Assembly: GCA_003248075.1 (NCBI GenBank) | Contig: QJYK01000087.1 | Coordinates: 1-48,013 of the forward strand | Source: Gemmatimonadota bacterium | GTDB taxonomy: Bacteria; Gemmatimonadota; Gemmatimonadetes; Longimicrobiales; Gaopeijiaceae | Length of the DNA stretch: 48,013 nt | Direction: 5' to 3' | Shown: positions 37,958 through 42,766 of the stretch, piece after piece | Position numbering within the stretch: the first letter of the stretch is position 1 | How the letters are laid out: every line of letters begins with the position of its first letter | Position numbers and translations under genes: made by a program | The notes under the pieces: model-generated | What the model was told of the DNA's origin: nothing | Seen by the model: only the letters and a program-made list of their open reading frames with translations | Database searches by the model: none

Positions 37958-37988
37958 TTCCGTCTCGAGCCCGGTGCGGAGGGGGGTA

Positions 37989-38657
37989 ATGAACGCTTCA
38001 GGGGATGAGGGCGCGAGCGCCGAACGTGTAACAGCGAAGCGGGTTTCGGCGTATCAGAGCGCGATGCAGACGGATGCTCAGACCCCGCTTTCGGAGACGA
38101 CGCGCCAGGCCTTCGGGCGCCGCGACGATCTCCCCCAGGATTTCTCAGCCTGGTTCGACGAGCACCGCGCCTCCGTGTTCCGCTACGTCCGGTTCCGCGT
38201 GGCGACCCGCGAGGCCGCCGAGGACGTCACCTCGGAGGTTTTCATGAAGGCGCTGCGGTCGCTGCACCGGTACAACCCCGGCCTGGCGTCCCCACGAACC
38301 TGGCTCCTGCGCATTGCACGCAACGCGGTGACGGACCACCTCCGGGCGCTGCGGCGGCGGGGATCGTTGCACGTGTCGCTGGACCGCGTTCCGGACCTCG
38401 TTGCGGACGTACCCTCCCAGGAGGAAAGGGTGGTTCGGGAGGAGCGCATCCAACGGCTGCTGAACGGCAGCCGAACGCTCCGTGGGGCGGATCAGGAGAT
38501 CCTGTCGCTCCGCTATGGCTCGGGCCTCGACAACGGTGAGATCGCGGAGCATCTCGGCATCAGCAACAATGCGGTAGCTGTCCGCCTGCACCGGGCGCTC
38601 AAACGCCTCAAGGTGGCGGTGGACCACCAAGACGAGAATGAAGATACGAGCTCATGA
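37989..38657 (+). CDS. ECF-type RNA polymerase sigma factor
   Basis: A 222-aa sigma factor with region 2 (about 45-115: WFDEHRASVFRYVRFRV, REAAEDVTSEVFMKALRSL, TWLLRIARNAVTDHLR) and region 4 (about 160-210: LRYGSGLDNGEIAEHLGISNNAVAVRLHRALKRL). There are no regions 1.2 or 3, so it is ECF type. ATG 37989 is preferred to GTG 37974 because GGAGGGGGGTA precedes it. The first 45 residues are an unconserved, polar extension. Its stop overlaps the start of a 938-aa TonB/GWxTD fusion protein that probably controls it. Confidence 0.93.
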   Translation: MNASGDEGASAERVTAKRVSAYQSAMQTDAQTPLSETTRQAFGRRDDLPQDFSAWFDEHRASVFRYVRFRVATREAAEDVTSEVFMKALRSLHRYNPGLASPRTWLLRIARNAVTDHLRALRRRGSLHVSLDRVPDLVADVPSQEERVVREERIQRLLNGSRTLRGADQEILSLRYGSGLDNGEIAEHLGISNNAVAVRLHRALKRLKVAVDHQDENEDTSS

Positions 38658-41470
38658 CGGATAGATCGCGTTTCGATGGTGAAGGGCTCCCGCCGGATCT
38701 GGCGGAGCTCGACGCCGAGCTGTCCTCGATCCGATACGAGGAGCGGCCGTCGTTCGGTCCCGAGCTGCGCGCCGAGCTGGGTCGGGAGTGGGTCGAGGAA
38801 AGGTCGGGGTCCCCCGGCGCGCACGGGCGGCACCTGCTCGCCGCAGGCGTGGCCGGTCTACTCATGATCGGTCTGGGCGTGCCGTCGGCCCGGGCGTCGC
38901 TCGCGCGTTGGGTTCAGTCGCTGCGGGAGGAGCCTGCAGTGGCGGAGCGCCCGGTGCCCCCTTCGCCGCTCCTCGGCCAGGGGATCCCCGCGCTCCAGTT
39001 CGCCCCGGAACCGCAGTTGGAGGAAGTCCTCACCCCCAGCGCGCCGCGCACGCCGACGGTGCCGCCCCGGCCGATCGAAGGTTGGGTCGGCGCCGAGGTG
39101 ACCTTCCCCGAGCTGGCGGACCGGCGGGCGGCGGAGCGGCTGATCCAGCTCAACTATCCGATCGAGCTCCAGGAGGCCGGCATCGGGGGCGTGGTGGGTT
39201 TGCGCCTCTGGGTCGATTCGACGGGTTCCGTGGAATCTGCGGACCTGGGGAGCGGCTCGGGAGTTCCGGAGCTCGACCGAGTCGCCCTCGAGGTGGCCAG
39301 GTCGTTCAAATTCACTCCGGCGCGTCGCCGGGGCCGTGCGGTGGGCACGCCCGTCGAATTCGACGTGCGCTTCGAGGCGAAGCCGCAGCTGGAACCGATA
39401 CCCCACGAGCCCGTCGGCGAGCCTGACGTGCCGGAGCTCCCCGGCGTGACTGTCGCCCCCGAGTGGCGTGGCCCTGTGGTTTCCGCTCGGCCCGACTCGC
39501 GATCGGCGAGTGATCTCCTCCGTGTCGCCGTGGCTGACGACGCAGCGCTGCGTCGTCTCGGCCCCCTCGAGGCGATCCTGGCCGGGGACCCGCCCGCGGG
39601 GGCCGCGCCGACCCGGTGGCGCTCGGAGGTGGGCGACGTCCTGGAAGCGGCGATGACCCGGGACCCGGACAACCCCGCGCCGTTTCTCGCGCTGGCGCGG
39701 ATCCGCAGGAAACAGGGCCTCAGGACCGAGGCACGCGTGCTCTTCGAGCGGGGGCTCCAGAAGGCCCTGCGCGGCGGCCGTACCAGCTCCCCCGCCGTGC
39801 TGGCCGACCTCCATTACGAGCGCGGGATGCAGGTGCGGGAAAGCTGGCTGTCCACCCGGGGGACGGGACGCGTGGGCGCCGAGGCGCTGCGGAGCAGCGC
39901 CTGCCCCCAGGCACGATCGTCTGGGGGGGCCGCTTCGGGTTACGCTTCAGCCGAGCGGCTTATCGCCTGGAACTACATGTGCCCTCTCGAGCTCGGACGG
40001 GTCTTCGAGACGGGTTTCGAGATGGATCCAAGGGTCAGTGACGCGGACCGCGCCTTGATGATGGCCAGCTTCGGCGCGGCCGTCGAAGCGTACCCGGCGC
40101 ACGTCGGTGCCAACGTCCAGCGTCTGCTCACGCTGTCCGACGCGGGCAGGTGGGAGGACGTCCTGGATGGCGCGCGCCGCTTCATCGACGCGTCGTCGGG
40201 CCACCCCTATGGACGTCTTCTGGCAGGGCTCGCGCTTCAGCGCCTCTCGCGCAGCGAGGAGGCCGAGCACGAGTTAGAGCTGGCTCGGGAGGGGCTACCG
40301 GCGTTTCAGGCCAGGCAGTTGGACGAGATCGCCCCGCTGCTGGACCGCGAGGACGCAGAGGCCTACCTCGCCCTGGGTGGGGCCGACAAGGGGACCTGGG
40401 TCAGGGCCTTCTGGGGTGGGTTGGACCCGATCCTGTCGACCGACGTCAACGAGCGGGCCGTCGAGCATCGGGCGCGGGCGGCCTACGCATTGCTGCGCTT
40501 CGGGAGCGTCGACGCGGACGCGGGCCTCGTCTGGATCCGGTACGGTCGTCCGGACCAGATCCGGGTCGTGAGCGGGAGCGGGGGCCTGCGCACCGAATTC
40601 TGGGACTTCGGACCCGGGCCGGACGTGACCTTCCGGGGTGTGGCCTCGGAGTCAGCTCTTTCGTTGACGCCGGAGGGGCGCGCGTACGTGGACGAGATCA
40701 GCCAGATGCTTCCGCATCGTTACGGTGACCAGTCCCGGCGTGTGTTTCCGCTGCGGGGACAGGTGAGTCGGTTCCGGGCGCAGCGTCCGGGAGCGACCCT
40801 CGTCACCATCGCCGTGGATCGGAGCTCTCTGCCCGCTGGGTGGGGCGACCGGGAAGTCGACGTGGGTACGTTCCTTCTCGGGGCGGCCGGCACGCCGTCG
40901 AGGGCCGGACGGGTCCGACGGTTGTTGCCGGGCGCACCCATCTCCGTGCAGGTGGTGGCCGATCGGGACGCTTCGGACGTGGTGATCGAGGTCGTCGACC
41001 CCCAATCCGGATCGGTGGCGTCCCTGCGCAAGGGCGCGTTCCTGCCCCAGACCGAGGGGGCACCCGGCGTCTCGGACCTGTTACTGGTCCGGCCGGCCGC
41101 GCCGGACCCGAACGAGCTGCGTCTCGATGCCGAATGGGTACAACCGGTGTCCGGCCCGGTCCGGACGGAGACGGTGGGCGTCTTGTTCGAGGTCTACGAC
41201 GTGGGTCACACCGTCAGCTGGTACCGCCTCCGCGCGGAAGTCGAGGATTCTGCGACCGGTCGAGTCCTGTCGGTGCCCCTGCACCCGGCAGGAGAGGCGG
41301 ACTACCGGCCGACCTGGGATCGTCGGGTATCCCCCGCGGGACCGACGCCGGAGTACCTGAGCCTCTGGGTGAAGGACGTGCCGCCCGGGACCTACCTCCT
41401 GCGGGTCTGGGCCGACCTGCCCGGGGCCGGGACTCCCCTGGTTTCGGAGCAGGTGCTCGAGCGAGGCTGA
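38654..41470 (+). CDS. Predicted anti-sigma-like/TonB/helical-repeat/GWxTD fusion protein
   Basis: A 938-aa protein starting inside the sigma stop (ATGA). Order: a polar, acidic cytosolic segment (1-58), one membrane helix (about 59-78), a Pro-rich linker (95-140), a TonB C-terminal-like domain (about 155-241: LNYPIELQEAGIGGVVGLRL, then WVDSTGSVESADL, LDRVALEVARSFKFTPARRRG), a helical repeat region resembling TPRs (about 320-570), a GWxTD-like domain (575-720: VRAFWGGLDPILSTDVNERA and GLVWIRYGRPDQIR), and a beta-rich end (about 740-938). The GWxTD tetrad itself reads SVDAD. Position in the operon suggests that the first 58 residues bind the sigma factor, though no zinc-finger HC2 motif is present. 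Function is inferred. Confidence 0.85.
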   Translation: MTDRSRFDGEGLPPDLAELDAELSSIRYEERPSFGPELRAELGREWVEERSGSPGAHGRHLLAAGVAGLLMIGLGVPSARASLARWVQSLREEPAVAERPVPPSPLLGQGIPALQFAPEPQLEEVLTPSAPRTPTVPPRPIEGWVGAEVTFPELADRRAAERLIQLNYPIELQEAGIGGVVGLRLWVDSTGSVESADLGSGSGVPELDRVALEVARSFKFTPARRRGRAVGTPVEFDVRFEAKPQLEPIPHEPVGEPDVPELPGVTVAPEWRGPVVSARPDSRSASDLLRVAVADDAALRRLGPLEAILAGDPPAGAAPTRWRSEVGDVLEAAMTRDPDNPAPFLALARIRRKQGLRTEARVLFERGLQKALRGGRTSSPAVLADLHYERGMQVRESWLSTRGTGRVGAEALRSSACPQARSSGGAASGYASAERLIAWNYMCPLELGRVFETGFEMDPRVSDADRALMMASFGAAVEAYPAHVGANVQRLLTLSDAGRWEDVLDGARRFIDASSGHPYGRLLAGLALQRLSRSEEAEHELELAREGLPAFQARQLDEIAPLLDREDAEAYLALGGADKGTWVRAFWGGLDPILSTDVNERAVEHRARAAYALLRFGSVDADAGLVWIRYGRPDQIRVVSGSGGLRTEFWDFGPGPDVTFRGVASESALSLTPEGRAYVDEISQMLPHRYGDQSRRVFPLRGQVSRFRAQRPGATLVTIAVDRSSLPAGWGDREVDVGTFLLGAAGTPSRAGRVRRLLPGAPISVQVVADRDASDVVIEVVDPQSGSVASLRKGAFLPQTEGAPGVSDLLLVRPAAPDPNELRLDAEWVQPVSGPVRTETVGVLFEVYDVGHTVSWYRLRAEVEDSATGRVLSVPLHPAGEADYRPTWDRRVSPAGPTPEYLSLWVKDVPPGTYLLRVWADLPGAGTPLVSEQVLERG

Positions 41471-41557: not shown

Positions 41558-42766
<1,209 letters not shown>

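Follow-up and report, generated by a model that had tools for sequence, protein, structure and literature searches.

The window, the 48,013-nucleotide stretch of a Gemmatimonadota genome that was analysed here, contains an ECF sigma factor gene between the glycolytic genes gap and pgk. The TGA stop codon of the sigma reading frame overlaps the ATG start codon (ATGA; start at 38654) of a gene encoding a 938-aa protein, which is referred to as the partner. The following features were distinguished, with residue numbers being those of the partner:

38027..38053, + strand: predicted ECF-type promoter of the sigma gene (-35 element TGTAAC at 38027-38032; -10 element CGTA at 38050-38053)
38064..38657, + strand: ECF sigma factor gene (Sigma70_r2 and Sigma70_r4_2 profiles; PDB sequence match)
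38654..41470, + strand: 938-aa partner protein, candidate anti-sigma factor (ATGA overlap with the sigma gene; full-length orthologues)
38654..38827, + strand: residues 1-58, predicted cytosolic two-helix segment, candidate sigma-binding part (alignments, model)
38828..38926, + strand: residues 59-91, membrane helix followed by a conserved juxtamembrane helix (hydropathy, models, alignment)
38927..39100, + strand: residues 92-149, disordered Pro-rich linker (low pLDDT, poor conservation)
39146..39376, + strand: residues 165-241, TonB C-terminal domain (PF03544, model, Foldseek)
39497..40321, + strand: residues 282-556, TPR-like helical region (model, Foldseek TPR matches, weak orthologue profiles)
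40322..40723, + strand: residues 557-690, GWxTD-like domain with a degenerate tetrad (TIGR04514)
40742..41464, + strand: residues 697-937, two Ig/FnIII-like beta domains (model, Foldseek, orthologue lengths)
41558..42766, + strand: pgk, followed by tpiA (42770) and secG (spacing to the partner)

The product of the sigma gene possesses the sigma2 and sigma4 regions only, which defines an ECF sigma factor, and matched the corresponding Pfam profiles (Sigma70_r2, 1.2e-17; Sigma70_r4_2, 1.6e-11). Its best PDB match by sequence was 6dxo_A, and the closest NCBIfam model was the BldN family (TIGR02952), where its 125.6 bits lie below the cut-off of 206.45; by these scores the protein is BldN-like only, the equivalog cut-off being missed. 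The longest sigma reading frame opens with a GTG at 37974. Because the promoter element sits at 38027-38053, the true start is probably not this codon but the ATG at 38064, 10 nt past the -10 element and almost without a leader. In the gap-sigma interval of loci L039, L044, L048 and L071, a small frame with CPVC...C..C zinc-ribbon spacing was noticed by eye.

Domain composition of the partner protein

The original prediction of a 938-aa product coupled by ATGA to an ECF sigma gene agrees with the reading frame, and the domain order that it proposed recurs in relatives, with full-length orthologues of 938-955 aa being found in other genera; as this order is common to relatives, it is no artefact. 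The predicted structure of the full-length partner (mean pLDDT 77) begins with two short helices, followed by the membrane helix and a juxtamembrane one; past a disordered linker come the TonB_C domain and a C-terminal arm made up of TPR helices, the GWxTD region and a pair of Ig-like domains. The Ig-like domains at about 697-937 had been missed, leaving the earlier domain list incomplete.

In the N-terminal segment, helices are predicted at residues 14-25 and about 35-52, ahead of a modelled membrane helix at 56-75, and their pLDDT of about 70-86 with the deeper 27-row alignment corresponds to moderate confidence. Besides Met1, eight residues of the segment (L19, L23, E30, R31, S33, E37, L38 and L42) are invariant in the alignments. 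Comparison of the segment with Pfam profiles and PDB sequences returned chance matches only, with no known anti-sigma domain of the zinc-finger, RseA or FecR types, and therefore no known anti-sigma class is claimed for it; a search for a second copy elsewhere in relatives gave only sub-significant matches. The proposal of one membrane helix was borne out, as residues 61-79 are the sole hydrophobic stretch (Kyte-Doolittle 1.95; no value exceeds 1.0 beyond residue 90). Directly after the membrane helix, the motif P-x-A-R-A-[SA] at residues 77-82 (38882-38899) is nearly invariant across orthologues, and could either be cut by a protease or form a helix on the membrane surface.

The TonB C-terminal-like domain, previously placed at 155-241, was detected by Pfam profile PF03544 at 165-241 (2.3e-14; 54 bits against a cut-off of 24.6) and modelled with a pLDDT of 95-98 from the 27-row alignment. 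TonB C-terminal domains were also the top PDB fold matches of a 249-aa model in Foldseek, both the domain and the fold that mark a TonB energy transducer being present in the partner. The expected TPR-like region is weak by profile (TPR_19, E 0.0056) and clear by predicted structure. For the GWxTD-like region, which had been located at 575-720, the profile GWxTD_dom (TIGR04514) gave a significant yet marginal match (28.8 bits against a cut-off of 28), in favour of the domain but not of its limits, since the match spans 557-650 and ends at 650; the same profile also matches 15/18 orthologues (E 0.01). The tetrad is indeed not intact, reading SVDAD in the partner, and it is altered in orthologues too. 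No paper on the GWxTD domain was found in the literature search, and the partner would give this domain its first functional context. The Ig-like part resembles transglutaminases, RbmA and complement proteins by Foldseek, where searches with the full-length model yielded weak whole-chain matches that are informative about the TPR and Ig-like parts but not beyond them.

Distribution, transcription unit and joint loss

Profile searches covering 395 Gemmatimonadota genomes identified a sigma orthologue in 41 of them, one broken (G288) and 40 intact. The partner module scored above 200 bits in 38 genomes, which together with G188, where it is split between contigs, and G035, where TonB_C is missing, are the same 40, all belonging to the window's own family. 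The next partner-like scores were below 147 bits, and these matches, with the exception of G188, span just a portion of the module. In 40/40 carriers an intact sigma gene is followed immediately by the partner, and the two lie between gap and pgk, so that both adjacency to and joint retention with an ECF sigma gene, as expected for an anti-sigma factor, were observed throughout; the question of constant adjacency of the sigma gene in other Gemmatimonadota, raised with the original prediction, is thus answered in the affirmative for the carriers. When named genomes were scanned for one peptide pattern, 27 loci were retrieved, all from Gemmatimonadota metagenome assemblies. Where contigs allow, the gene order is aroE-comF-gap-sigma-partner-pgk-tpiA-secG, followed by pdhA-pdhB in most cases, and in 18/20 sampled non-carriers pgk lies less than 200 nt from gap with nothing between them. 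No TonB-dependent receptor gene is located beside the partner, the neighbours being gap and pgk.

The promoter assignment is based on position and conservation. The element TGTAA[C/G]-N16/17-CGTA, with an ATG about 9-12 nt further on, occurs upstream of the sigma gene in 34/40 carriers when up to one mismatch in TGTAA is allowed (0.7 expected from shuffling), and its strict consensus occurs once only in the 5.6-Mb genome, at 38027-38053. Before gap, pgk, tpiA and aroE the element is absent in both carriers and non-carriers, bar isolated one-mismatch matches. A regulon scan with the promoter pattern in 23 carriers gave 64 matches, of which 21 were the sigma promoter; a reversed-pattern control, which is a rough guide only, gave 127. 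When a downstream ATG was required, only the autogenous site recurred across genera, and scans of 23 and 33 carriers disclosed no second target that does so. A few promoter-pattern sites recur among related g2 genomes, and other target genes may have weaker promoters that a strict pattern misses. The only widely conserved promoter of this sigma factor is its own, inside a central glycolysis cluster.

The distance from the partner stop codon to the pgk start is below 130 nt in 35/36 carriers (87 nt here, and a 4-nt overlap in six), which makes read-through into pgk-tpiA likely; judging from this spacing and the promoter position, the sigma and partner genes probably form an autoregulated operon running into pgk-tpiA(-secG). 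At locus L044 (G096), the only measured carrier in which the genes are not close, about 2.4 kb with other frames lies between the partner and pgk.

The architecture of the partner varies among lineages. The full-length fusion was observed in genera g1, g6, g13, g25 and g121, the g8 partner lacks the Ig-like end, and the partners of g2, g17, g18 and g20 consist of the N-terminal segment, membrane helix and TonB_C only. The G035 partner (locus L046) has the N-terminal segment, membrane helix and TPR-GWxTD part without TonB_C, its sigma gene being kept, and the G227 partner lacks GWxTD. Hence the idea of a one-protein fusion holds insofar as the sigma partner is obligate and both TonB_C and GWxTD are genuinely present, but neither the fusion nor the GWxTD part is essential, as seen in the TonB_C-only genera, G035 and G227. 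What every architecture has in common is the N-terminal segment, the only soluble part kept throughout, together with the membrane helix, and because this core is invariant the outer domains look like exchangeable sensor modules. As versions with TonB_C alone, with TPR-GWxTD alone and with the two combined all occur in nature, what each outer domain does can be tested directly.

At least nine changes on supported branches are needed to account for the state without the cassette in a tree built from gap, pgk, tpiA and aroE, both genes having been lost jointly and repeatedly, and the sigma gene and the N-terminal segment change together in 11/11 phylogenetically independent contrasts (p about 0.001). 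Decaying cassette copies were observed at loci L082, L045 and L064: in G288 the sigma frame is broken in region 4 and the partner is gone, and in G266 and G230 only TPR/GWxTD pieces are left, sigma and the N/TonB_C part having been lost together. These relics support a functional tie between sigma and partner. The partial distance correlation between sigma and the N-terminal segment, given gap and pgk, was 0.30 (p 0.003). Co-variation of sigma with TonB_C was also considered, and found no support (partial r 0.02). Based on the joint change, the relics and the distance correlations, the N-terminal segment is likely to be the sigma-facing part, the weight of all this evidence being limited by physical gene linkage, near-duplicate genomes and the lenient partial Mantel test.

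The partner as a candidate anti-sigma factor

The arrangement is real, conserved and, as far as the literature search shows, undescribed. The best inference from the sequences and models is that the partner is a transmembrane anti-sigma factor that senses through TonB_C and, in some lineages only, bears a TPR-GWxTD extension, since the layout, the obligate pairing and the autogenous promoter all fit an anti-sigma function. Taken as a whole, an explanation that combines a transmembrane anti-sigma factor, a periplasmic TonB_C sensor, sigma release and an autoregulated operon is probably correct. The predicted cytosolic part of about 58 aa, with its two short helices, would hold the BldN-like ECF sigma factor at the inner membrane face, much as the two-helix anti-sigma factor CnrY wraps CnrH. 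The periplasmic part would act as the sensor, in which a flexible Pro-rich linker would carry the TonB-type C-terminal domain and this domain would bind an outer-membrane or periplasmic partner, with the TPR/GWxTD/Ig-like arm providing a further binding surface in some genera. A change in the outer contact would then free the sigma factor, by proteolysis or by conformational change, and free sigma would transcribe from its own promoter at 38027-38053 an mRNA with almost no leader that spans sigma, partner and probably pgk-tpiA-secG, the outcome being positive autoregulation with a built-in negative feedback. Inhibition of sigma by the partner, its N-in topology, the use of the promoter by sigma and read-through into pgk are what we infer from these data, and the envelope state may control the sigma switch via the outer domains. 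It is possible that a receptor is linked to sigma by one protein, as originally suggested. We consider it unlikely that the complete chain of events applies, in which the TonB-type domain of the anti-sigma factor docks on receptor TonB boxes, one polypeptide turns the state of the receptor into release of sigma, and sigma acts chiefly on its own operon, so that pgk-tpiA expression is coupled to the state of the envelope.

In cell-surface signalling a FecR-type regulator can be needed for sigma activity, and this precedent raises the alternative that the partner activates sigma, as a positive co-factor or as a membrane anchor. Obligate pairing and joint decay would be expected for an activator no less than for an inhibitor; however, FecR and STN profiles are absent from the partner in the profile searches, and the two short helices before the membrane helix in the model resemble the inhibitory class II/III layout (PMC7406223), making activation an improbable role.

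A TonB-like energy transducer that is merely co-expressed with sigma and regulates nothing would account for the genuine TonB_C fold, the Pro-rich linker and the one N-terminal membrane helix, but it appears quite improbable on several grounds. The membrane helix lacks the conserved His/Ser of the TonB-ExbB/D type (no His is conserved there in the 27 aligned orthologues), whereas a separate TonB with a His in its membrane helix is encoded beside two ExbD-like genes in this genome (L131, a conventional TonB gene). In addition, the partner of G035 lost TonB_C yet sigma and the N-terminal segment were kept, and an intact sigma gene was never seen without the partner. The TonB_C domain is accordingly taken to serve in binding and not in energy transduction, because the partner has no membrane helix of the ExbB/ExbD-interacting type and a separate TonB is available beside the two ExbD-like genes.

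A purely structural linkage, in which a two-gene cassette is passed on or lost as a unit although its products are functionally unconnected, is very improbable: the genes are adjacent and often overlap, so that the joint loss could be a single deletion removing both, but TPR/GWxTD pieces persist where sigma and the N/TonB_C part are gone, the lone sigma that lost its partner is broken, and the N-terminal segment stays conserved, whereas each of the outer domains is dispensed with in at least one lineage.

Comparison with known systems

Within Gemmatimonadota, free-standing TPR-GWxTD proteins (L020, L022, L026 and others) share about 30% identity with residues ~280-930 of the partner, but they are unfused to the N-terminal segment or TonB_C and have no orthologous sigma gene alongside. 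The class I, II and III anti-sigma domains use a dual-interface mode, those of the CnrY type contacting sigma2 and sigma4 (PMC7406223). The candidate anti-sigma factor shares with the CnrY-CnrH (class II) and RsbN-BldN (class III) pairs a short segment, predicted to be helical, ahead of one membrane helix, and an adjacent ECF sigma gene, the likeness extending to the sigma factor through its 6dxo_A and BldN-family matches, but its N-terminal segment has no sequence match to a solved anti-sigma domain. To our knowledge, the outer parts of CnrY-CnrH and RsbN-BldN type regulators are without TonB_C and TPR-GWxTD domains.

M56/BlaR1-like sensors resemble the partner in that they are membrane signalling proteins, and not energy transducers, with TonB_C at their periplasmic end, although their output is peptidase-based rather than sigma release. 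In this genome, TonB_C ends one apparent M56/BlaR1-type sensor (L133; M56 call by eye). The participation of a TonB/TolA-type C-terminal domain in ECF sigma signalling has a precedent in VreA of the VreA/VreI/VreR (PUMA3) system of Pseudomonas aeruginosa, a separate, mostly soluble periplasmic protein of STN and TonB/TolA-like composition (PMC2729926); unlike the partner, VreA is not a membrane regulator and has no TPR or GWxTD part.

In the FecI/FecR/FecA and FoxI/FoxR/FoxA systems, the periplasmic end of the regulator binds the signalling domain of the receptor, with TonB being a separate protein (PMC11637429, PMC9249621). The present locus is similar in that the ECF sigma gene adjoins a single-pass membrane regulator, the periplasmic part of which may meet a TonB-dependent transport system, but the candidate regulator carries its own TonB C-terminal domain, without a FecR profile and without an adjacent receptor gene. 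In known TonB-linked sigma systems the receptor, TonB and the anti-sigma factor are distinct proteins, whereas here a TonB-type domain resides on the candidate anti-sigma factor itself.
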